Shown: positions 2,659 through 60,880 of the stretch, in pieces | Position numbering within the stretch: position 1 is the first letter of the stretch | Layout of the letters: each line of letters begins with the position of its first letter | Source of the DNA: an uncultured Mucilaginibacter sp. | Lineage (GTDB): Bacteria > Bacteroidota > Bacteroidia > Sphingobacteriales > Sphingobacteriaceae | Direction: 5' to 3' | Length of the DNA stretch: 64,000 nt | NCBI GenBank assembly: GCA_903863845.1 | Contig: CAIPDP010000018.1 | Span: forward strand, 1 to 64,000 | Notes under the pieces: generated by a model | The model's database searches: none | Seen by the model: the letters and a program-made list of their open reading frames with translations, nothing else | Told to the model about the DNA's origin: nothing | Made by a program: the position numbers and the translations under genes

Positions 2659-3609
2659 ATGATCAAAATATTAGCCAACGACGGTATCGATCCAATAGGC
2701 AAAAAAATGCTTGAAGATGCCGGTTTTATTGTTGATACCAACAACATACCGCAGGATGAATTACCTGCAAGGTTAAATGAATACGACGCCATTACGGTGC
2801 GCAGCGCCACCAAAGTGCGCAAAGCCTTGATCGACGCTACCCCGAATCTGAAACTGATCGGTCGCGGTGGCGTGGGCGTAGATAATATTGATGTTGAATA
2901 TGCCAAAGAAAAAGGCATTGGTGTTTATAATACGCCTGCTTCATCTTCATTATCGGTAGCCGAACTGGTTTTTGCAAGCCTGTTTGGTTGCGTTCGTTTC
3001 CTGCCTGATAGCAACCGCAAAATGCCGGTAGATGGTCATACTAAATTTAACGACCTGAAAAAAGCCTATGCTAAAGGTGTTGAACTGCGTGGCAAAACAC
3101 TGGGTATCGTTGGTTTCGGTCGCATTGGCCGCGAGGTAGCAAAGATTGCTATAGGTGTTGGCATGGATGTGATCGCTTATGATCTTTATCCATTCAACCC
3201 CGAACTGGATCTGGTTTTAGGTGGTGGTATCCAGGTTAAAGCCTCTGTGAAGACTGCTACATTAGACGAGATCATCACTACGGCCGATTTCATCACCCTG
3301 CATACACCATTTATCGACAAAGCACTGTTAGGTGCTGAAGAATTAGCTAAAACTAAAAAAGGTATTGGCCTGGTGAACATCTCGCGCGGTGGTCTGATCG
3401 ACGAATTAGCGCTGATCGATGCATTGAACAGTGGTCATGTTTCCTTCGCTGCATTAGACGTGTTCGATAACGAACCTACACCACGCGAAGAGATATTGAA
3501 ACATCCTAAAATCTCCCTAACCCCGCATATCGGTGCCGCCACCAACGAAGCTCAGGAGCGCATCGGTGTTGAACTGGCTAGTTTGATCATCGGGCACTTT
3601 AAGAAATAA
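2659..3609 (+). CDS. serA: D-3-phosphoglycerate dehydrogenase (short form, no ACT domain)
   Basis: Oxidises 3-phosphoglycerate to 3-phosphohydroxypyruvate with NAD+, the entry step to serine. The D-2-hydroxyacid dehydrogenase signatures are all visible: the Rossmann motif GFGRIGREVA, the catalytic Arg in NISRGGLIDE, the Glu in FDNEP and the His in LTPHIG. At 316 residues it lacks the C-terminal ACT or ASB regulatory domains of longer SerA proteins, so classical serine feedback through an ACT domain is not expected. It follows serC, and a rho-independent terminator lies just downstream. Confidence 0.93.
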   Translation: MIKILANDGIDPIGKKMLEDAGFIVDTNNIPQDELPARLNEYDAITVRSATKVRKALIDATPNLKLIGRGGVGVDNIDVEYAKEKGIGVYNTPASSSLSVAELVFASLFGCVRFLPDSNRKMPVDGHTKFNDLKKAYAKGVELRGKTLGIVGFGRIGREVAKIAIGVGMDVIAYDLYPFNPELDLVLGGGIQVKASVKTATLDEIITTADFITLHTPFIDKALLGAEELAKTKKGIGLVNISRGGLIDELALIDALNSGHVSFAALDVFDNEPTPREEILKHPKISLTPHIGAATNEAQERIGVELASLIIGHFKK

Positions 3610-3636
3610 CAGGAATTCTACGAATTGTAGCGAATT

Positions 3637-3672
3637 GCACGAATGCCTGGAAATGGGGTTCGTGCTTTTTTT
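3637..3672 (+). terminator. Rho-independent terminator after serA
   Basis: A perfect 7-bp stem GCACGAA/TTCGTGC (3637-3643 and 3659-3665) is followed directly by an uninterrupted run of seven Ts (3666-3672). It lies 28 nt after the serA stop. Confidence 0.8.
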
Positions 3673-3693
3673 GGACACGATTTTGAGGATTTG
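3673..3693 (+). repeat. Dispersed GGACACGATTTT...GGATTT repeat copy
   Basis: Starts right after the serA terminator T-run. The same motif recurs in reverse orientation at 19588-19612, partly at 56810-56822, and as the flanks of the GxxExxY gene (46838-46885 and 47317-47346). Confidence 0.6.
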
Positions 3694-3763
3694 TTTTTGA
3701 TAGACAGGATTTAATTTGCTACTGTTGTTGTGCGGAGCTGTGTTGGCCTGTGCGCCAGGCAGC

Positions 3764-5316: not shown

Positions 5317-5476
5317 AGTCGATAGTCTTTAGTCGATGGTAGATGGTCAATAGTCCATAGACCATGGTCCATAGCCCATAGTTCTAAAAGTAATGATATT
5401 AGTTTTAAGGCTATTGCCTTTTGAACGAATTACCTTTAAATTGCCAATAAAATATCCATGGACTATTGACCATGAA
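5317..5476. repeat. Heptamer array (RGTCCAT type) with distal inverted arm
   Basis: Nine consecutive 7-bp units of the type AGTCGAT, GGTCAAT, AGTCCAT run from 5317 to 5379. Three units in the opposite orientation (CCATGGA type) lie at 5456-5476. The second arm is complementary to about 5341-5358, so a long hairpin with a ~100-nt loop can form. It lies between the ABC gene stop and the beta-CASP gene start, both on the minus strand. Confidence 0.75.
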
Positions 5477-5485
5477 CCAGCGCAG

Positions 5486-10763: not shown

Positions 10764-11678
10764 ATGAAATTTGAAGTTACTATATTGGGAAGCAGTTCGG
10801 CTACGCCAATTTTTAACCGAAATCCATCGGCGCAAGCATTAAATATTAACGAACATTATTATCTGGTTGATTGTGGCGAAGGAACGCAACAGCAAATGCT
10901 GCGTTTTGATATAAAAGCCAGCCGGATCGATCATATCTTTATCAGCCACCTGCACGGCGATCATTACCTTGGGCTTGTTGGATTACTGTCGTCTATGCAC
11001 CTGAACGGACGCACGAGAACCCTAAAGCTTTTTTGCCCCGAACCCTTAAAGGAAATCATCGAGATTCAATTAAAATACTCTGATACTACTTTGCAATATA
11101 ATATTGAGTATTGTTTTACCAATTCGAGTGTTGCAGAAAAGATATTGGAAACCCAGGACCTCGTAGTTGAAAGCATCCCGCTTGATCACCGCATCGCCTG
11201 CACTGGTTTCCTGTTCAAGCAAAAGAAACGATTAAGAAAGCTGATCAAGGAAAAGATCGCTGAATTGGATATTTCTGTTGAATATTATTCGGCTATAAAA
11301 AAAGGAGCTGATTATACCGCCCCGAATGGAAAGATCTTCCTCAATAACGAACTAACTTTCGATCCCGAACTGCCCAAAAGCTATGCATACTGTTCGGATA
11401 CGCAATATAACGAGAACTATTTTGCACAGATCAAGGGGGTTGATCTGCTATACCACGAAGCTACTTTTACCCATAGTATGCTATCCCGTGCCGAAATTAC
11501 CCACCATACCACAGCACTCCAGGCAGCCGAAATAGCAAAAATTACCCAAGCTAAAAGGTTGATCATTGGCCATTTTTCGGCCCGATACAAAACCTTGAAC
11601 GAACTGCTCGACGAAGCCCAGTCGGTATTCCCGGCAACTGAATTGGCGATAGAAGGGAAAACCTTTTCCATTGAGTAA
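10764..11678 (+). CDS. rnz: Ribonuclease Z
   Basis: Zinc endonuclease that trims the 3' ends of pre-tRNAs. The 304-residue length matches the short RNase Z form. Ligand motifs include FISHLHGDHYLGLVGLL (about residues 59-75), LDHRIACTGF, and YCSDTQYNE, and the late HHTTALQAAEIA and IIGHFSARY motifs supply further ligands. The TAA stop is also the first three bases of an inverted-repeat arm that spans the gap to the convergent MCE gene. Confidence 0.95.
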   Translation: MKFEVTILGSSSATPIFNRNPSAQALNINEHYYLVDCGEGTQQQMLRFDIKASRIDHIFISHLHGDHYLGLVGLLSSMHLNGRTRTLKLFCPEPLKEIIEIQLKYSDTTLQYNIEYCFTNSSVAEKILETQDLVVESIPLDHRIACTGFLFKQKKRLRKLIKEKIAELDISVEYYSAIKKGADYTAPNGKIFLNNELTFDPELPKSYAYCSDTQYNENYFAQIKGVDLLYHEATFTHSMLSRAEITHHTTALQAAEIAKITQAKRLIIGHFSARYKTLNELLDEAQSVFPATELAIEGKTFSIE

Positions 11679-11779
11679 TTTGAAGATTTGGTAATTTGAA
11701 GATTTGACAATTAATTGGCCTGCTTTAAAATCTTCGATTTTAAAATCAATCATCTTCAAATTAACCAATTTTCAAATTA
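11677..11779. repeat. Octamer (TTTGAAGA-type) inverted repeat between rnz and the MCE gene
   Basis: The left arm 11677-11704 and right arm 11752-11779 match as inverted repeats at 25 of 28 positions, with a 47-nt spacer. Each arm is built of TTTG-starting 8-bp units. Both convergent genes end inside or against it: the rnz TAA overlaps the left arm, and the complement of 11777-11779 is the TAA of the minus-strand gene. It probably acts as a bidirectional terminator hairpin. Confidence 0.8.
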
Positions 11780-12721
11780 CTTATCCTTCTTCCCAAAAAC
11801 CGAGAAGCTTACGTAGCGTTTGGGATGGGCCTTCAAGTCAACCAGCAATTTATTTAAACTGTTTGAGGCGCTGTCAAGGTTGCGGTACAGGTGGTCATCG
11901 TTCAAAAGTAATCCCATTGAGCCTTTGCCGTTATTGATCTTTGCCAATGACTCCTGCAGGTTTCCGATCGCCTTATTGGCGTTTTCTAAGGTTTGTTTGA
12001 TATTTGAATGTGCCAGATCATTTGAAAAACTTTCGGCATTACCTGCTATGGTGTTCAAATGTGCCGTGCTGGTTTTAAGATTATCAGAGGTTGCTTCAGC
12101 ATTGGCCAGTATCCCTTTAATATGACCTGATTGCGATCCTACGAGGGTATCAATCTTTTTGGTGGTCCCTTCCAACGTTTGGAGGGTATTTGCGATACTC
12201 AGGAAGCTTCTGTTGATATTTTTCTGAAATTCAGGATTCATGGTCTTGTTGATCGCATCCAGTGAAGAATCCATTTTGCTGATCAGCTGTTCGGTTTTCT
12301 TTTGTATCGGTTGCAAGCTTTCTGCCAGGCTGCCCTGTATATCGGCCTCGAGTGTATCCTGATCGGTAGCAAATTTTTTGCTATTACCCATTTGAAATAC
12401 GATGGCTTTTGAACCCAACAGGTCGGTACTTTCCAACTTTGCCCGCGTATTATCCGGAATATTATATTGTGGCTCGATCTTAAATTCAACGATCGTGCGC
12501 CCGTCAGGCTGCAAGGTCATTTTTGAAATATGGCCGATTTGGAAGCCGTTTACCAATACAGGTTTTGATACCGACAATCCCTCAACACTATTATAAATGG
12601 CGTAATAACGGTTTGTCGTAGAAAAGATATCGTTTCCCCGCAAATAACTATAGCAAAGGATCAATATCGTTATCGCGATAGTGGTTAGTACACCTATTTT
12701 TGTTTCGTTTGATATCTTCAT
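11777..12721 (-). CDS. MlaD-like MCE-domain protein
   Basis: 314 residues. One N-terminal membrane helix (about residues 9-26) is followed by a single MCE domain (about 37-115, FSTTNRYYAIYNSVEGLSV onward, with NGFQIGHI) and a long helical C-terminal tail. MCE proteins bind lipids and form hexameric rings in the periplasm for phospholipid transport, with MlaE/MlaF-type permease and ATPase partners that are not present here. The amidase gene lies upstream on the same strand, so this is an envelope-maintenance neighbourhood. Confidence 0.88.
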   Translation of the reverse strand: MKISNETKIGVLTTIAITILILCYSYLRGNDIFSTTNRYYAIYNSVEGLSVSKPVLVNGFQIGHISKMTLQPDGRTIVEFKIEPQYNIPDNTRAKLESTDLLGSKAIVFQMGNSKKFATDQDTLEADIQGSLAESLQPIQKKTEQLISKMDSSLDAINKTMNPEFQKNINRSFLSIANTLQTLEGTTKKIDTLVGSQSGHIKGILANAEATSDNLKTSTAHLNTIAGNAESFSNDLAHSNIKQTLENANKAIGNLQESLAKINNGKGSMGLLLNDDHLYRNLDSASNSLNKLLVDLKAHPKRYVSFSVFGKKDK

Positions 12722-19481: not shown

Positions 19482-19533
19482 TGGGTATTGGGTATCAGGT
19501 ATTGGGTATCAGGTATTGGGTATCAGGTATTGG
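19482..19533. repeat. Heptamer tandem array GTATTGG/GTATCAG
   Basis: A 14-bp unit made of the two heptamers GTATTGG and GTATCAG repeats three times, followed by a partial fourth copy. It begins about 6 nt after the E2 stop codon. Confidence 0.85.
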
Positions 19534-19587
19534 TTAATAGGGAATTTTACTTTAGTAAGTTAACTAAACTAGACATCTTGAGCATCA

Positions 19588-19612
19588 CCAAAAAATCCTG
19601 AAAATCGTGTCC
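19588..19612 (-). repeat. Dispersed ACACGATTTTCAGGATTTTTTGG repeat copy
   Basis: On the minus strand it reads GGACACGATTTTCAGGATTT and on. It is the same family as 3673-3693 and the GxxExxY flanks. Confidence 0.6.
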
Positions 19613-43959: not shown

Positions 43960-44343
43960 ATGTCGCGCAAAATCATTATTACTGCTTCTATTATAGGCCT
44001 GCTGGGGGTAATAGCCGGTGCCTTTGGCGCTCATGGTTTAGACCCATTATTTACCCCCAAACAAAAAGAAATTTGGCGAACTGCGGTACAGTACCAGTTT
44101 TATCATGCTTTTGTCTTGCTTTTTCTATCGTATTTTAAAGCGGATGTTAAAGCGATACGACTGAGCTATTACCTGTTTACCATTGGTATCCTGTTCTTCT
44201 CAGGCTCTTTGTACCTGCTTGCCTGTGCCGACTTGCTGGGTATTACCAATTTGTCTTACATCGGACCAATTACTCCCCTTGGCGGATTGCTGTTCATAGC
44301 GGGCTGGGCCAGCCTGGCTTATGCTGCCTATAGAAATAAATAA
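43960..44343 (+). CDS. DUF423 integral membrane protein
   Basis: 127 residues with four predicted helices (about 6-28, 45-62, 69-92, 102-123). The DUF423 signature GLLGVIAGAFGAHGL at the N-terminus, the QYQFYHAFVLLFL block and LTPLGG-like ITPLGGLLFIAGW near the C-terminus are present. The function is unknown; the family is widespread in inner membranes. It ends 1 nt before the preferred priA ATG. Confidence 0.88.
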   Translation: MSRKIIITASIIGLLGVIAGAFGAHGLDPLFTPKQKEIWRTAVQYQFYHAFVLLFLSYFKADVKAIRLSYYLFTIGILFFSGSLYLLACADLLGITNLSYIGPITPLGGLLFIAGWASLAYAAYRNK

Positions 44344-44344
44344 G

Positions 44345-46831
44345 ATGCTGGAGTTTGCCGATGCACAGCATACCGACCGCCAGACCTTGTTTGTTGAGGT
44401 TATCCTGCCCCTGGCAATAGCGAAAAATTATACCTATCGTGTACCCTTCCAACAGAATGATGCTGTGGCGATAGGCAAAAGGGTAATTGTACAATTTGGC
44501 AAGAGTAAAATATACACCGCTATTATTGCCGGTATCAGCAACAAAGCTCCCGAAAAGTACGAAGCAAAATATATACTGGATATTTTAGACGATCAGCCGG
44601 TTGTTACAACTGTGCAACTTCAGTTCTGGACCTGGCTAGCCGACTACTACTTATGCCATGTCGGCGAGGTAATGAATGCCGCATTGCCATCAGCTTTAAA
44701 ACTGGCAAGTGAGACCAAAATAGTTCTCAATCACGAATTTGCCGTTGATAAACCCGCTTTGCACGATAAAGAATACCTGATAGTTGAGGCCCTTGAATTA
44801 CAGCCCGAACTAACCGTTGGCGATATTGTAAAGCTACTCGGCCAAAAAACGGTGATGCCGATTTTGAAATTGATGTTTGAAAAAAACATCATTCATATTT
44901 CAGAAGAAGTAGCTGATCGCTATAAACCCCGGAAAAAGACATTTTTAACTCTAAACCCTGTTTACCATAACCAGGATAATTTAAAAGAACTGTTTCCGAT
45001 ACTTGAAAAACGGGCGCCGAAGCAGGCAGATGCCTTACTGGCCTACATCAAACTATCCCGGCATCAGCAAAACATTTCTAAGACTGAGTTAATAGAAGAA
45101 AGTGGCGCCGGAGATAGCAGTATAAAAGCGCTGATTGAAAAAGATATTCTATTTGCAGAGGAAAGAAATGTCAGCCGCCTTTATTTCGATGAAGATGAGT
45201 TTAGTGATGATTTTCAGTTAAGCGAATCACAAACCGGGGTGCTTGACCAGATCAAAGATCAGTTCGCGCAGAAAGAGGTGGTTTTATTACATGGTGTTAC
45301 CTCGTCCGGAAAAACACAGCTTTATGTCCGCTTGATCGAAGAAATGATCAATTCCGGTCGCCAGGTATTGTATTTGCTGCCCGAAATTGCGCTTACCACA
45401 CATATCATCGAAAGGTTACGACAGTATTTTGGGAGTAGTATCGGTGTATATCATTCGCGTTTTAATGATAATGAAAGGGTAGAGGTTTGGCAAAAAGTAT
45501 TGCGGCATGAATATAAAGTGGTGCTGGGCGCCCGTTCATCGGTATTCCTGCCATTTGCCGATCTGGGTTTGATCATTGTTGATGAGGAGCATGAAACCTC
45601 CTATAAACAATTCGATCCGGCTCCGCGCTACAATGCGCGTGATGCGGCCATTTACCTCGCCAACCGTTACCAGGCTAAAGTGTTGCTGGGCTCTGCTACG
45701 CCTTCTTTCGAATCGTATTATAATGCCCGCAACCATAAATACGGTTTTGCTGAACTGACCGAGCGTTTTGGTGGTGTGCAGTTACCGCAAACTGAAGTGG
45801 TAAGCATCAGCGAAGAACTCAAAAAGAAAACCATGCAGTCGCACTTTACCAGTGTGCTGATGGAGGAGATCAAAACGGCGCTCAGTAACAAAGAGCAGGT
45901 GATCCTGTTTCAGAACCGTCGTGGTTACGCCCCCGTGCTAATGTGCAAAATTTGCGCCTACACCCCAAAATGTATCAACTGCGATGTTAGTCTTACCTTC
46001 CATAAAAGCAGCGGTAAATTGCATTGCCACTATTGCGGTTACCGTGATGAAGCCCCATCGATATGCCCGGCATGTGGTTCAACCCATATGGAGTATAAAG
46101 GCTTCGGCACCGAAAAAGTGGAAGATGAACTTAGCATGCTGCTGCCGGAGTCGCGCATAGCCCGTATGGACCTGGACACCACCCGTTCAAAAAATGCTTT
46201 GCAAAATATTCTGAACGACCTGGAGGAAAAGAAGATAGATATATTGGTAGGTACCCAAATGGTTGCCAAAGGGCTCGATTTTGCCGACGTGACCGTTATT
46301 GGAATCATCAATGCCGACAGTCTGTTAAAATACCCCGATTACCGTGCTAACGAACGCAGTTTTCAAATGCTGGCACAGGTGAGCGGAAGGGCCGGGCGAA
46401 GGGGCAAGCAGGGTAAAGTGGTGATCCAGACATACGACCCCGGCCACCGGGTCATCAAACAGGTAATTGAAAACGATTATATAGATCTGTACCTGACCGA
46501 GATGGAAGAACGCCGGAGTTTTAAATACCCGCCGTTTTACCGCATCATCAACCTCGATATCAAGCATAAAAACCCCGAGATACTCTACAACCAGGCCGAA
46601 TACCTGGCCAACGAACTCCGCAAGAGCTTCGGCGACCGCGTCATCGGCCCCGAATTCCCCTTAGTTAACCGTATCCGAAACTTTTACATCAAATCCATCA
46701 TGCTCAAATTTGAGCGCGATGTGGAGTCGATCAACCGTGCCAAATCCATCATCCGCGAAACCATAACACAGTTTCAGACAACGAAGTTGAGTAAGGGCTC
46801 AATAGTTCAGGCGGATGTGGATCCGGTTTAG
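44345..46831 (+). CDS. priA: Primosomal replication helicase PriA
   Basis: Restarts stalled forks by loading the replisome. About 828 residues from ATG 44345 (MLEFADAQHTDRQTLFVEV); an in-frame ATG 24 nt earlier would overlap DUF423. The N-terminal DNA-binding domain is followed by the helicase core with Walker A GVTSSGKTQLY and the DEEH box IIVDEEHETSYKQ. The zinc-binding Cys pairs are CKICAYTPKCINC and CHYCGY...CPACGS. The C-terminal helicase motifs include AQVSGRAGRRGKQGKVVIQT. Confidence 0.95.
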   Translation: MLEFADAQHTDRQTLFVEVILPLAIAKNYTYRVPFQQNDAVAIGKRVIVQFGKSKIYTAIIAGISNKAPEKYEAKYILDILDDQPVVTTVQLQFWTWLADYYLCHVGEVMNAALPSALKLASETKIVLNHEFAVDKPALHDKEYLIVEALELQPELTVGDIVKLLGQKTVMPILKLMFEKNIIHISEEVADRYKPRKKTFLTLNPVYHNQDNLKELFPILEKRAPKQADALLAYIKLSRHQQNISKTELIEESGAGDSSIKALIEKDILFAEERNVSRLYFDEDEFSDDFQLSESQTGVLDQIKDQFAQKEVVLLHGVTSSGKTQLYVRLIEEMINSGRQVLYLLPEIALTTHIIERLRQYFGSSIGVYHSRFNDNERVEVWQKVLRHEYKVVLGARSSVFLPFADLGLIIVDEEHETSYKQFDPAPRYNARDAAIYLANRYQAKVLLGSATPSFESYYNARNHKYGFAELTERFGGVQLPQTEVVSISEELKKKTMQSHFTSVLMEEIKTALSNKEQVILFQNRRGYAPVLMCKICAYTPKCINCDVSLTFHKSSGKLHCHYCGYRDEAPSICPACGSTHMEYKGFGTEKVEDELSMLLPESRIARMDLDTTRSKNALQNILNDLEEKKIDILVGTQMVAKGLDFADVTVIGIINADSLLKYPDYRANERSFQMLAQVSGRAGRRGKQGKVVIQTYDPGHRVIKQVIENDYIDLYLTEMEERRSFKYPPFYRIINLDIKHKNPEILYNQAEYLANELRKSFGDRVIGPEFPLVNRIRNFYIKSIMLKFERDVESINRAKSIIRETITQFQTTKLSKGSIVQADVDPV

Positions 46832-46837
46832 TTTTGA

Positions 46838-46885
46838 ACACGATTTGACACGATGCAGCGATTTAATTGATTTTTAGGATTTTTG
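46838..46885. repeat. Left inverted repeat of the GxxExxY cassette
   Basis: AACACGATT at the outer end and GGATTTTTG at the inner end match, in inverted orientation, the right repeat at 47317-47346. The left copy carries extra bases (an internal second ACACGAT). It begins 6 nt after the priA stop. Confidence 0.65.
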
Positions 46886-46908
46886 CTAAATTGCTAATAT
46901 ATTTAGCC

Positions 46909-47310
46909 ATGGAAATTAATGACATCACCCATAAAATCATTGGTTGCGCTATGAAGGTTCATAATACTTTAGGTAGCGGATTTGCAGAATTGATCTATCA
47001 ACGAGCCCTGGCAAAAGAGATGGCTAAAAATGGATTGAGCTTCGAACAGGAAAAAGATATGCCAATTGTATATGATGGGGAAAAAATCGGTTCACGACGC
47101 GTTGATTTTTTTGTCGAAAATTGTATCATGCTGGAAATAAAGGCATTCGAAAAAATACAGGAGGTACATAAAAATCAGGCTATAAATTACCTGGAAGTAT
47201 TTAATATTGCAGACGGATTATTAATAAATTTTGGCAGCGATAGTCTGGAATTTAAAAGACTGTACAATAAAAAAATGGTCAATCCGAAGGATTTACCTTT
47301 TAACAATTAA
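46909..47310 (+). CDS. GxxExxY protein (PD-(D/E)XK-like)
   Basis: About 133 residues from ATG 46909 (MEINDITHKIIGCAMKVHN). The name-giving motif GFAELIY follows (residues ~23-29), then RRVDFFVENCIMLEIKAFEKI with the Asp and the ExK pair of a PD-(D/E)XK nuclease core. Pfam groups this family with PD-(D/E)XK nucleases, but its biological role is unknown. The gene is flanked by inverted copies of a dispersed repeat and has no functional link to priA or pcm, which suggests a mobile cassette. Confidence 0.85.
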   Translation: MEINDITHKIIGCAMKVHNTLGSGFAELIYQRALAKEMAKNGLSFEQEKDMPIVYDGEKIGSRRVDFFVENCIMLEIKAFEKIQEVHKNQAINYLEVFNIADGLLINFGSDSLEFKRLYNKKMVNPKDLPFNN

Positions 47311-47316
47311 TAATCT

Positions 47317-47346
47317 CAAAAATCCATCAAATCCCAGAATCGTGTT
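47317..47346. repeat. Right inverted repeat of the GxxExxY cassette, reaching the pcm start
   Basis: On the minus strand it reads AACACGATTCTGG and then GATTTGATGGATTTTTG, matching the left repeat. Its outer AATCGTGTT contains the GTG used as the pcm start. Confidence 0.65.
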
Positions 47347-47995
47347 TAAGTTCGTTGATAACTACCGTGAGCGTGGCGCCCGAAAAAGGTTGGTTGAGTT
47401 GCTGGAGAAAAAAGGTATCGAAGATAAACGTATCCTTAAAGCCATAGGCAAGGTGCCAAGGCATTTCTTTTTTGATGAAACATTCTGGAACCAGGCGTAC
47501 AAGGATATTGCTTTCCCGATAGGCGAGGAGCAAACCATCTCGCAGCCCTATACTGTGGCGTACCAAACCCAGTTGTTGCAGGTAAATAAAGGTGATAAGG
47601 TGCTCGAGATCGGTACCGGATCAGGTTATCAGGCTTGTATTTTAGTTGAAATGGGTGCCGATGTTTATACCATTGAGCGTCAGCAGAAATTGTATGAGCG
47701 TACCATACAGGTATTGCCTTATATGGGTTATAAGCCCTATTTTTTCCTGGGCGATGGCTCAAGGGGACTAAAACAAAACGCGCCATTTGATAAGATCATC
47801 GTTACTGCCGGGGCACCTACCGTACCTGAGGAATTATTGAAACAATTGAAAGTTGGCGGTATCCTGGTCATCCCCGTAGGTGATGAGGAAGCACAAAAAA
47901 TGGTCACCGTTTTGAAAACCGGCGAGAACGATTACGAAAAGCATGTGCTGGATACCTTTAGATTTGTGCCTCTGGTTGGGGATAAGGCGTGGTAG
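47342..47995 (+). CDS. pcm: Protein-L-isoaspartate O-methyltransferase
   Basis: Methylates abnormal isoaspartyl residues with SAM so they can be repaired. About 217 residues from GTG 47342 (FKFVDNYRERGARKRLVELL follows). A longer frame from 47231 overlaps the GxxExxY gene in another frame and lacks family sequence, so it is rejected as the start. The PCMT signatures QTISQPYTVAYQTQLL, the SAM site VLEIGTGSGYQACIL and the late KIIVTAGAPTVP are visible. The start codon lies inside the right repeat of the preceding cassette. Confidence 0.92.
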   Translation: MFKFVDNYRERGARKRLVELLEKKGIEDKRILKAIGKVPRHFFFDETFWNQAYKDIAFPIGEEQTISQPYTVAYQTQLLQVNKGDKVLEIGTGSGYQACILVEMGADVYTIERQQKLYERTIQVLPYMGYKPYFFLGDGSRGLKQNAPFDKIIVTAGAPTVPEELLKQLKVGGILVIPVGDEEAQKMVTVLKTGENDYEKHVLDTFRFVPLVGDKAW

Positions 47996-47996
47996 G

Positions 47997-48079
47997 AGTT
48001 CGGAATGTGGAATTTAGAGTGCGAAATGCGAAATGCCAATTGCGAAATGCGGAATGATGAATTTCGGATTCCGAACAAT
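47997..48079. repeat. Heptamer inverted repeat (TGCGAAA type) between pcm and smpB
   Basis: From 1 nt after the pcm stop the DNA reads as 7-bp units (AATGTGG, AATGCGA, AATGCGG and so on). The two ends, GTTCGGAAT and ATTCCGAAC, are perfect complements. It lies between convergent genes and may terminate both. Confidence 0.75.
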
Positions 48080-51218: not shown

Positions 51219-51689
51219 ATGGCAGCCGAAATCGATAAAATAGACTTGCAGATACTGCGCATCTTACAGGAAAACGGAAGAATCACCAATCTTCAGCTTT
51301 CGAATGAGATCGGACTATCACCTGCCCCGACACTCGAACGGGTTCGCAAACTGGAGAATGCGGAATATATAAAGAGCTACCACGCACTGGTAGATGAAGA
51401 AAAACTCGGGCTGGGCATCAAAACCTTTATACAGGTATCTTTAGATTTCCACAAGAACAATACGATCCAGGTATTTTTAGATGAGATTCAAAAGATCAAA
51501 GAAGTAACCGAATGTCACCACGTGACCGGGCAATGCGATTTCCTGCTCAAGGTTTATGTAAAGGATATCAAATCGTACGAACAATTGATCATGGAAAAGA
51601 TCAGCCGCATCCCCGTGGTAAAAACTTTCCAAACCATGATGATCATGTCAACCAGCAAGAAAGAACCTATCGTACCGCTGGAATATTAA
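51219..51689 (+). CDS. Lrp/AsnC-family transcriptional regulator
   Basis: 156 residues. The N-terminal helix-turn-helix (IDLQILRILQENGRITNLQLSNEIGLSPAPTLERVRKLENAEYI, ~7-51) is followed by the RAM effector domain (IKTFIQVSLDFH...TECHHVTGQCDFLLKVYVKDI). Such proteins bind amino acids and control their metabolism; the target here is unknown. It is divergent from mntR. The TAA stop forms the first bases of a perfect inverted-repeat arm. Confidence 0.92.
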   Translation: MAAEIDKIDLQILRILQENGRITNLQLSNEIGLSPAPTLERVRKLENAEYIKSYHALVDEEKLGLGIKTFIQVSLDFHKNNTIQVFLDEIQKIKEVTECHHVTGQCDFLLKVYVKDIKSYEQLIMEKISRIPVVKTFQTMMIMSTSKKEPIVPLEY

Positions 51690-51833
51690 TTTGAAAATTT
51701 GGTAATTTGAAAATAAACGAATTTGAAAATTTGAAGATTTGAAAATTTGAAAATGAAGGATTTCTCGGTAACCAAATAATATTTGAAGGAAGTAAGCATC
51801 TTCAAATTTTCAAATTACCAAATTTTCAAATTA
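51687..51833. repeat. Perfect 28-bp octamer inverted repeat between lrp gene and ung
   Basis: Arm 51687-51714 is complementary at all 28 positions to arm 51806-51833, with a 91-nt spacer that holds more TTTGAAAA units. The left arm starts TAATTTGAAAATTTGG, and its TAA is the stop of the lrp gene. The complement of the last three bases of the right arm is the TAA of ung. It likely acts as a double terminator. Confidence 0.88.
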
Positions 51834-52508
51834 AAAAATTAACCAATTAATTTCCCTTTTTCCTGTTTTCAGTAAAATTTCGTTTGTTTTTGAGAATGGT
51901 TTAGAGCCGAAGAAACCCCGGTCGGCGGAGAATGGCGAGGGGTGGGGAGATTTGATGATAAAATGCTTTGTTTGATCGATGAGTTCGGCTTTGGCCTGAG
52001 CAAAGGCCCCCCACAGTATAAATACGATTCCTTCTTTCTGTTCGGATATCGTTTTGATCACTTTATCGGTGAATTCTTCCCAGCCTTTCTTTTGATGCGA
52101 ACCGGGACTGCTGTCTCTGACGGTTAAAGTGGCATTGAGTAATAAAACACCCTGTTCGGCCCAGCTGCTGAGGTCGCCGTGTGAGGGGATCGTAAAGCCG
52201 GGTATATCCTTTACCAGTTCTTTAAAAATGTTCTTTAGCGATGGCGGCGGATTGATACCCCTTTGAACTGAAAATGAAAGTCCATGTGCCTGACCGGGAC
52301 CGTGATAGGGATCCTGGCCCAGGATAACCACTTTCAGTTGATCAAAAGGTGTTTTTTTAAATGCATTAAAAATATCGCCGCCTTTCGGGTAAATTTTATA
52401 GCCGGCTTCCCTTTCATTTTGCAGAAATGCTTTGAGTTTGACCATGTATTCCTTGTCAAATTCATCCTGCAATACAAGCATCCATGAAGGTTCTAAATCA
52501 ATTGCCAT
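51831..52508 (-). CDS. ung: Uracil-DNA glycosylase (family 1)
   Basis: Removes uracil from DNA to start base excision repair. 225 residues. Catalytic water-activating motif GQDPYHGPGQAHGLSFSV near residues 64-81, LLLNATLTVR in the core, and HPSPFSADRGFFGSKPFSKTN near the C-terminus (about 187-207) with the catalytic His and the Leu/Ser intercalation region. The N-terminus has SWMLVLQDEF. The stop codon is part of the inverted repeat. It is divergent from the small membrane gene at 52580. Confidence 0.96.
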   Translation of the reverse strand: MAIDLEPSWMLVLQDEFDKEYMVKLKAFLQNEREAGYKIYPKGGDIFNAFKKTPFDQLKVVILGQDPYHGPGQAHGLSFSVQRGINPPPSLKNIFKELVKDIPGFTIPSHGDLSSWAEQGVLLLNATLTVRDSSPGSHQKKGWEEFTDKVIKTISEQKEGIVFILWGAFAQAKAELIDQTKHFIIKSPHPSPFSADRGFFGSKPFSKTNEILLKTGKREINWLIF

Positions 52509-53479: not shown

Positions 53480-53657
53480 GGTATTAGGTATTGGGTATTA
53501 GGTATTGGCCATTAGGCATTAGGCTTTAGTCCATAGTCCTTCATCCTTGCTCCTTCGCCCGCAATCGGTTAACAATTATAGATCCCGATCCTAAATAGCT
53601 ACCCAACAACTAATACCCGATACCTAATACCCGATAACTGTTACCCAATACCCAATT
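53480..53657. repeat. Heptamer inverted repeat (GGTATTA/GGTATTG) downstream of lysS
   Basis: Nine 7-bp units (GGTATTA, GGTATTG, GGCATTA, GTCCATA and so on) run from 53480 to 53542. Six complementary units (CCCGATA, CCTAATA, CCCAATA type) run from 53616 to 53657. The last unit runs straight into the lysS stop codon. The 53383-53655 gap holds nothing else. Confidence 0.85.
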
Positions 53658-56170: not shown

Positions 56171-56827
56171 AAATGAACTCCTCTAAATTTACAATTTTCA
56201 TTAATTGGGCGACTATAGTTTGTAAGCTTTTTTAGCATTTTTTTTCCGCAATTGTCAGTCAGGAAAATGTGGAAATGCATCCTGATGAACTGGTTTAATT
56301 TAGAGCCTCAATCTGCAAATGTGGCCGATAGTTTAGGTCGGATTTTTCGCAATTCGCTCATTTTCAGCTTATAACTGAAGTTGTTGAACGGCACCGGAAA
56401 TTGTTAGTCGAAAAAATGGCATTTTGAAAAAAAGGATACTGATGATCAATCGATTATAAAAGCTAAATGCTTTAGGTCGAAAATGAATTAACCTGCTGAA
56501 ATTCAGATACCTACGTATTGAATTTTTGGCGACCGGTAATTTTACCGGCATTTCGGGCGCAAGTTAATGATTACTAAGGAGTTAGAGTTTCCGGTGCGGC
56601 CTATTCCAATGAACACTTAAAACTCGCTACGAAGCACTTACAAAAAAACATGAAAAGAACTGGAAATCCAGAGGCCACTTTTAGGGCTTTTTTAGCCTCA
56701 AAACGCAGTTTTTAAGTCGTTTTAAGCGTGTTTTAACGCAATTTTCGTGAACGCTTGAAAAAACGGAATTTATTATTTTGAATATCCTGTTTAGCTAAAA
56801 AAACCTACCAAATCGTGTCAGGGAACA
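56171..56827. other. Gene-poor stretch with hairpins and a repeat fragment
   Basis: No convincing CDS. Visible items are an inverted repeat CCGGTAA/TTACCGG (56533-56539 and 56542-56548), a GAGGC...GCCTC hairpin downstream of the PD40 gene with an inner GGCT/AGCC stem (about 56672-56700), and AAATCGTGTCAGG (56810-56822), part of the dispersed ACACGATT family. It may be a decayed mobile element or a 3' region of the lipoprotein gene. Confidence 0.45.
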
Positions 56828-60713: not shown

Positions 60714-60880
60714 TAATTTGGTTATTTGATGATTTGAAAATGACCCCAAATCATCTGTTTCTTTATTGCTGATAATCTCTAATTATCTCTTTGTTTATTT
60801 CTTTATAACGCTCTTATCTACCCGCCCTAAACCTGATTTTCAAATTTTCAAATCATCAAATTTTCAAATTTTTCAAATCA
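60714..60880. repeat. Octamer (TTTGAAAA) inverted repeat between iscS and iscU
   Basis: An 18-bp arm ATTTGATGATTTGAAAAT (60724-60741) is perfectly complementary to 60844-60861, within longer TTTG-type arrays on each side. Unlike the other octamer repeats, it lies between two codirectional genes of one operon. Confidence 0.8.

Follow-up and report, generated by a model that had tools for sequence, protein, structure and literature searches.

RAYT (TnpA-REP) is a small gene tied to inverted repeats (PMC3116915), and gene-free hairpin doublets of such repeats, known as REPINs, occupy extragenic space (PMC8266576). The intervening sequences of 23S rRNA contain a small S23p/IVP open reading frame between stem-forming inverted repeats, occur sporadically and are suspected of mobility (PMC4990558).

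Here, a locus of related layout was analysed in an uncultured Mucilaginibacter sp. It lies in a window of 64,000 nucleotides (contig CAIPDP010000018.1, assembly GCA_903863845.1, positions 1 to 64,000), in which a GxxExxY gene is bracketed by inverted arms between priA and pcm. Like RAYT and its repeats (the REPtron), it consists of a gene between inverted repeats that are also dispersed as gene-free hairpins. By family, residues and fold, however, the enzyme is of the PD-(D/E)XK type and theirs is a HuH tyrosine transposase, and an arm here is a direct run of repeats phased at 9 nt that pairs with the opposite arm, whereas theirs is a palindromic repeat. A further difference is that four gene copies with four arm sequences are present here in one genome. 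The likeness to RAYT and REPINs is one of apparent function, an analogy; enzyme and repeat structure place the unit outside that group.

With the 23S rRNA intervening sequences the unit shares a small open reading frame between inverted repeats, a parallel that concerns the layout and the IVP family, but the intervening sequences interrupt rRNA genes and leave the RNA through RNase III cleavage (PMC4990558), whereas the window unit lies between two protein genes. Like MITEs, the gene-free relatives of the unit are short, end in terminal inverted repeats and occur in many copies; unlike MITEs, they show no target-site duplication in 26 end pairs, their arms are phased arrays and the partner protein is not a DDE transposase. 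IS200/IS605 elements are single-strand transposons with folded single-strand ends, a HuH transposase and short subterminal hairpins, and they insert without target duplication. The absence of target duplication, in the end pairs checked here, is common to both, and so, on the route proposed below, would be the folded single-strand ends. Here, however, pairing of the arms spans the entire unit, and the enzyme is of another class.

The motifs of RecB/Cas4 nucleases include QxxxY, and Cas4 has four conserved iron-sulphur cysteines. In its modelled fold, and in having E after the first helix, D, ExK and QxxxY, the GxxExxY protein resembles these nucleases; it differs in comprising 133 aa and in being encoded inside its own inverted arms, and from Cas4 in having no cysteine among the invariant or nearly invariant columns of 60 sequences. 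A search of the open-access literature (listed titles, starts of abstracts and passages) returned no link between GxxExxY and flanking repeats.

The unit between priA and pcm

The initial annotation had assigned the gene to the GxxExxY family with a PD-(D/E)XK core. Profile searches confirmed the family, with scores above both curated cut-offs, for TIGR04256 'GxxExxY' (E 1.4e-41; 141.5 bits, cut-off 35) and for PF13366 (E 1.1e-39; 135.9 bits, cut-off 22). The downstream neighbour, which we take to be pcm following the first annotation, has homologues in 117 of the 120 genomes compared in the genus. Its start codon here is probably now a GTG that belongs to the right arm, where relatives show an ATG (Table 1).

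The outer (46834-46845 / 47338-47349; 12 nt, 92%) and inner (46869-46885 / 47317-47333; 17 nt, 82%) inverted repeats that had been described are both present, as portions of one longer arm on each side, built from GAT(T) repeated at intervals of about 9 nt. Read from the outside inward, the left arm is TTGAACACGATTTGACACGATGCAGCGATTTAATTGATTTTTAGGATTTTTG, with GAT(T) at steps of about 9 nt, and the right arm is its inverted counterpart.

Table 1. Features of the window that belong to, adjoin or resemble the GxxExxY unit.
Feature	Position	Strand	Sequence or remark	Basis
Left arm of unit	46834..46885	+	TTGAACACGATT, then GAT(T) units about 9 nt apart up to GGATTTTTG	sequence, inverted partners
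GxxExxY gene, 133 aa, PD-(D/E)XK nuclease-like	46909..47310	+	ATG to TAA	profiles, alignment, model
Right arm of unit, inverted	47309..47349	-	CAAAAATCC...AATCGTGTTTAA	sequence, inverted partners
priA, upstream neighbour	44321..46831	+	unit starts at most 2 nt from priA stop codon	
pcm, downstream neighbour	47342..47995	+	GTG start codon, inferred	open frame
Gene-free 9-nt phased run, AAT type	3609..3645	+	GAATTCTACGAATTGTAGCGAATTGCACGAATG	sequence, by eye
Gene-free run, the unit's own CACGATT type	3673..3711	+		sequence, pattern count
Gene-free run, CACGATT type as in the unit	19588..19612	-	close match to 3673-3692	

Across the window and 20 stretches of its own genome (287,200 bases, of them 4,000 N), 43 inverted pairs scored at least 14, against one after one block shuffle. 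The window unit is among them (46848-46884 / 47309-47345, score 17), and 23 of the 43 pairs have no clear period. Solo copies of the repeat had been reported at three places. Those at 3673-3693 and 19588-19612 are real, and 3673-3692 and 19593-19612 are alike (GGACACGATTTTNAGGATTT; two matches versus none expected in 100 shuffles), but the third, at 56810-56822, consists of ACACGATT and a weak second unit and is alone within chance expectation; ACACGATT occurs five times in the window, with 2.1 expected. Folded whole, the window unit is no more stable than its shuffles (z -0.25), and the solo stretch 3600-3720 does not form a strong hairpin (z -1.8); 53480-53628 gave z -2.4. A search for known RNAs between 46700 and 47500 gave just one sub-threshold snoRNA match.

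The source genome is a 3.98-Mb draft, and the best matches of the window gene are Mucilaginibacter records, one of them at 99% identity. Each of its three other GxxExxY genes is located elsewhere and has an arm sequence of its own. Two have inverted phased arms on both sides, made of CTGATT units in one case and of CACAGAG/CACAAAG units in the other; the last has CACAGATT units that form a clear phased array on its downstream side, and in inverted orientation its flanks match each other (score 22.5).

Inverted arms across host groups

Survey loci were taken from the genus, from a genome scan and five genomes so reached, and from samples of three further groups, each defined through a MAG: the phylum of an Anaerolineae one (Chloroflexota), the class of a Thioploca one and the phylum of a Patescibacteria one. 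The GxxExxY gene is present in 48 of 61 genomes of the genus and in 35 of 151, 45 of 274 and 31 of 192 genomes of these three groups, respectively. At each locus, an alignment was made between 300 nt upstream of the domain and 360 nt downstream, the latter reverse-complemented, and a score of at least 14 was taken as the threshold; three of 170 loci had flanks too short for this, and 11 duplicates among the remaining 167 were left out.

Inverted arms were identified at 123 of the 156 distinct loci in four host groups (132 of 167 before removal of duplicates), with 33 below threshold, so that the flanks which the initial annotation had proposed to look for do in most cases accompany other GxxExxY genes. 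By group, they were found at 54 of 64 loci in Bacteroidota and mixed hosts, 25 of 31 in Chloroflexota, 28 of 33 in the Thioploca class and 16 of 28 in Patescibacteria, where 12 stayed under the threshold. None of 668 shuffled flank pairs reached it, and scoring for direct repeats at the same threshold yielded 29 of 167 loci (27 of the 156 distinct ones). Mismatched pairs within a group reached it in 134 of 1304 cases, which surely reflects the sharing of motif families. For the first 61 loci, analysed with 250-nt windows, arms were detected at 47, against six of 598 random placements within those same loci.

Searching with the window protein (tblastn) gave eight matches among plasmid records and none in 50,697 phage records. 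Arm scores at five plasmid-record loci were 54.0 in Gemmatirosa (by score alone), 22.5 in Bacteroides, where the arms are plain, and 12.0, 11.5 and 11.0 in Fusobacteriota, Sphingomonas and Treponema, where like motifs can be seen by eye on both sides. Five units (L045, L048, L052, L053 and L059) sit at the end of genes that look by eye like hsdS of type I restriction systems; the left arm is there read as the C-terminal end. The Pseudarcicella copy (L051) shares 83-85% protein identity with Thioploca copies (L050, L052), a sign of transfer across phyla. In Patescibacteria, a GxxExxY domain lies in frame within a protein that we take from its sequence to be LepA (L177:1255-3342; L180:1-2088, minus strand; probably also L178), between the ERGITIK and DTPGHVDF motifs, and in L180 it is preceded by an apparent translated arm (KTQTNADKTQTDAD).

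Phasing and motif families

The best lag was 8-10 nt in 223 of the 264 arms of 132 loci (8 nt in 57, 9 nt in 136 and 10 nt in 30), with a match peak at 9 that became flat after shuffling. Read by eye, an arm usually comprises three to five near-copies of a motif of seven letters that follow one another at a phase of 9 (8-10) nt; the units include CACAGAG, CGCCAAG, CGCAAAG, CACGAAG, CACGGAT, CACGAAT, CGCTGAT, TACGAAT, ACAGGAT, CACGATT and similar sequences.

The relation between motif and protein was evaluated at the 109 distinct loci where arms were present, the unit was clear and the gene nearly full-length, each given one of four coarse labels (GAG, AAG, GAT, AAT). The label changes 23 times on the protein tree, compared with a mean of 59.5 and a minimum of 51 in 200 shuffles; within groups, there are 6 changes versus 19.5 in Bacteroidota, 8 versus 12.1 in the Thioploca class and 7 versus 12.8 in Chloroflexota. 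The nearest relative from another host group has the same label at 67 of the 109 loci, against 26.3 expected by within-group permutation (maximum 53 in 5000), and as 20 loci alone act as these cross-host relatives, the 67 matches are not independent. Since the label follows both the protein tree and the cross-host relatives, arm type and gene tend to travel together between host groups.

The twelve residues that covary most with motif type are 25, 93, 67, 109, 28, 68, 115, 91, 33, 26, 23 and 98; most of them adjoin conserved motifs, and phylogeny confounds this signal. Within a unit, the left arm scores 19 against the right one, and the same arm compared across loci scores 9 to 15; as arms were picked by mutual match, this is only a hint of their concerted evolution.

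Occupancy of gene junctions

The stretch upstream of pcm was compared in 70 genomes of the genus, in 53 of which priA is adjacent. Seven of these 53 have a GxxExxY gene between priA and pcm, shortened in L088 and split in L268. The other junctions are empty or hold gene-free units or remnants, so that sites lacking the gene, which had been proposed as a check, do exist. Among them are gene-free AAT-type units (L097, L266 and, with an extra insert, L270), a gene-free palindromic stretch (L091) and half units (L095, L105, L241). The closest relative by pcm is 97% identical in the pcm protein and 92% in the last 600 nt of priA; its GxxExxY gene is 67% identical, lies in the opposite orientation (gene minus, pcm plus) and belongs to a unit with the ends TTTTGAACACGATT...AATCGTGTTCAAAA. 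An ancient priA-GxxExxY-pcm operon, named at the outset as one reading that would count against mobility, is ruled out by the presence of the gene in so few of the adjacent pairs.

A second junction lies between genes that appear by eye to be glutamine-synthetase-like and phosphotransferase-like. Here 28 of 30 loci were comparable and 12 of the 28 genomes carry the GxxExxY gene (four of the 34 loci in the set were added by hand and fall outside both counts). Five of these copies have CACAGAG arms and seven have GAT arms, and some are broken (L286, L287). Among the gene-less states, L281 has a gene-free AAT unit, L285 and L289 keep right-side remnants only, and in L279, L282 and L283 the stop codon abuts the start codon with no array. 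With CACAGAG, GAT and AAT units all represented, three motif families have entered one junction.

When both neighbours were called, 94 of 126 units (duplicates kept) lie between genes codirectional with the GxxExxY gene, and the medians from arm end to neighbouring frame are 6.5 and 6.0 nt. The junction comparisons used one genome per species, with relatives differing by several per cent or more, so that the exact joints are inferred.

Gene-free hairpin units

The pattern GTCTGAAC-N(65-95)-GTTCAGAC was matched 388 times, in 52 of the 100 genomes of the genus that were scanned and up to 43 times in one genome, against a single match for the reversed pattern. The matches are too short for a gene, and phased arms are seen among the matches listed. 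In these relatives the arms remain, with a short loop between them (81-111 nt in the family that was counted). The initial annotation had proposed a mobile unit of about 500 bp with gene-free, MITE-like relatives, and both these copies and the patchy junctions agree with it.

Twenty gene-free copies were read in one genome, of which 20 have TT at the left flank and 18 have A at the right; by eye, two of them (L356, L372) are nested in GAT-type units. When folded as DNA, six of the twenty form hairpins (z from -5 to -12). Target-site duplications of k = 2 to 9, which had been suggested as a sign of insertion, were absent from all 26 end pairs, some of which have an end in common. A gene-free unit with the same ends and GAT-type arms occurs at a Patescibacteria locus (L173).

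Empty sites were searched for with seven gene-free copies in 20 genomes. Three sites could be aligned across relatives, with no clean empty joint, and what they hold ranges from the same unit, in one genome (L377), through other units and other repeats to nothing, a variety that suggests high turnover. Another dispersed repeat, of GTCATTGCGAG...GAAGCAATC style, occupies the same intergenic spots as gene-free units in L270, L378 and L379. Gene-free copies occur in 24 of 48 genomes with the GxxExxY gene and in 4 of 13 without it, which is not a significant difference (Fisher p 0.35); genome G013 has 14 pattern matches and zero PF13366 matches.

Conservation and predicted structure of the GxxExxY protein

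In an alignment of 60 intact sequences, chosen from 104 that qualified, residues G22, E27, D66, E76, K78, Q90, Y94 and F108 are invariant, among them those of the GxxE motif and of QxxxY and the D and ExK of the proposed nuclease core; Y30, the Y of GxxExxY, is conserved in at least 90%. Purifying selection is evident from a median dN/dS of 0.07 (range 0.03 to 0.27) over 31 pairs, which are not all independent and mostly have dS above 1.

The structure model (pLDDT 93.9) has a PD-(D/E)XK-type core. Its best solved match is 4ic1, SSO0001 (Foldseek E 2e-4; by a second aligner Z 9.9, rmsd 4.3, 103 aligned), which we take to be a Cas4 protein, followed by lambda exonuclease (Foldseek E 8.5e-3) and the restriction enzyme BpuSI (Z 8.3), with the rest at Z below 8. 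By sequence, no solved relative was found at E up to 1 from the single sequence, and a profile gave one, 3hpe, at E 1.1. In defence and phage libraries, the matches to PADLOC Cas4 and PDC-M36A and to PHROG families were weak. The protein thus models as a mini RecB/Cas4-like nuclease.

A second protein family with the same layout

For comparison, the four-helix-bundle family PF05635 (23S_rRNA_IVP) was examined; it is present in 41 of 41 genomes of genus and class. Its loci in these relatives (L201-L230) have inverted arms in 26 of 30 cases; leaving out two clipped loci, the count is 24 of 28, against none of 56 shifted windows. In Chloroflexota (L396-L425), arms were found at 15 of 29 usable loci versus two of 58 shifted windows. 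The arm period is 7 nt, in 46 of 52 arms of the first set and 26 of 30 in Chloroflexota. Two unrelated folds thus share one layout with different periods, which suggests that the period reflects the protein; as the IVP family is without a nuclease fold, the layout itself does not need a nuclease.

The source genome probably has IVP units of its own at L307:1296-1862 and L322:8012-8527. Inverted units phased at 7 nt in the style of IVP arms also lie in the window at 5334-5482 and 53480-53631, and at L306:1188-1362, L311:5185-5332 and L311:14849-14990; the interior of the gene-free 7-nt units, about 90-110 nt, is below gene size. Two further 7-nt runs were seen by eye at 19490-19545 (TATCAGGTATTGGG) and 48001-48070 (GAAATGCGGAATGC), one of them directly behind pcm, with no obvious inverted partner. 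A third kind, with arms phased at 8 nt (AATTTGAAAATTTGGTAATTTGAAAAT), is found in the window at 11674-11781, 51686-51834 and 60715-60870, and no partner protein was found for it.

Movement of the units

Beyond what the initial annotation described, the arms are arrays phased at about 9 nt whose motif differs by protein clade, and the unrelated 23S-IVP family has the same layout at 7 nt. Mobility of the units is well supported by comparison of their sequences, and the layout, its recurrence in distant bacteria and the gene-free copies point to an undescribed kind of mobile DNA. We consider it somewhat probable, at a little better than even, that the locus is one copy of a miniature mobile unit of about 500 bp, REPIN/RAYT-like in its behaviour, and built on an unrelated nuclease which recognises the arms around its own gene. 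Judging from its co-segregation, its fold and the purifying selection on it, the GxxExxY protein would move or maintain the repeat.

Because the arms are inverted copies of each other, either strand of the unit, once single, can fold back on itself as one hairpin. The GxxExxY protein would recognise the phased arms of its own clade, perhaps with one protomer per repeat, and its nuclease might trim or nick the unit ends while these are folded as single strands, for which the lagging strand is the simplest setting. Host repair could then join the freed hairpin into A+T-rich gene junctions (TT/A) without target duplication. The cutting role of GxxExxY, the single-strand route and recognition by tandem protomers are all conjectured steps of this scheme.

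A wider reading, which we put forward tentatively and hold a little less probable than not, is an undescribed superclass of bacterial miniature mobile elements with inverted end arrays phased to the encoded protein (9 nt for GxxExxY, 7 nt for IVP and perhaps 8 nt for a third). The protein would coat or process the arms repeat by repeat, folded single strands would move without target duplication, and gene-free hairpins would be mobilised in trans.

The occurrence of one layout with two unrelated proteins, at about 9 nt and at 7 nt, and the gene-free matches in four of 13 genomes without a PF13366 match would also fit a passenger role, in which a host or resident enzyme moves any inverted-arm hairpin and GxxExxY (like IVP) only binds, protects or regulates the arms. 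An accessory binder, however, would not need nuclease residues that stay invariant in 60 distant relatives, and the arm motif tracks the nuclease clade; we regard this role as rather unlikely. It is less likely still that the nuclease acts in a homing-like manner, cutting gene-free arrays of its own type so that repair from a gene-bearing copy spreads the gene into existing arrays. The nuclease fold would suit such a process, as would junctions that are filled, gene-free, remnant or empty depending on species, but it is opposed by the array-less sites with abutting stop and start codons at the second junction, and by the two gene-free units nested, by eye, in units of another motif, which require insertion of the unit itself.

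The arms might instead act as an RNA stem cut by RNase III, which would make insertions in operons harmless and leave the nuclease with another task. This agrees with the prevalence of codirectional neighbours and the short distances to their frames, and with the excision of intervening sequences by RNase III (PMC4990558). As an account of the whole it is very unlikely, for it leaves the phased repeats, the match of motif and clade and the gene-free copies unexplained; it is nevertheless compatible with a mobile unit whose nuclease reads its own arms, and the two are not exclusive. Flanks that match by chance are ruled out by the shuffles, the same-locus placements and the direct-repeat and mismatched-pair controls. 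That A+T-rich intergenic repeats simply happen to flank the gene would fit the count of ACACGATT taken alone, but given in addition the period and the block-shuffle, reversed-pattern and tree-label controls, we hold this to be exceedingly improbable.

Implications

GxxExxY is a named yet uncharacterised family, for which the present finding supplies a DNA target that can be read from the flanks of each gene, so that specificity can be tested clade by clade. If the favoured reading is true, a class of nucleases would join the enzymes known beside miniature mobile DNA, and a kind of intergenic repeat would be explained. The same reading would also bear on what the rRNA intervening sequences and the S23p protein are for, a question that has been open for more than 25 years (PMC4990558). 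If the superclass reading holds as well, such elements would have their proteins in two common families that are so far uncharacterised.
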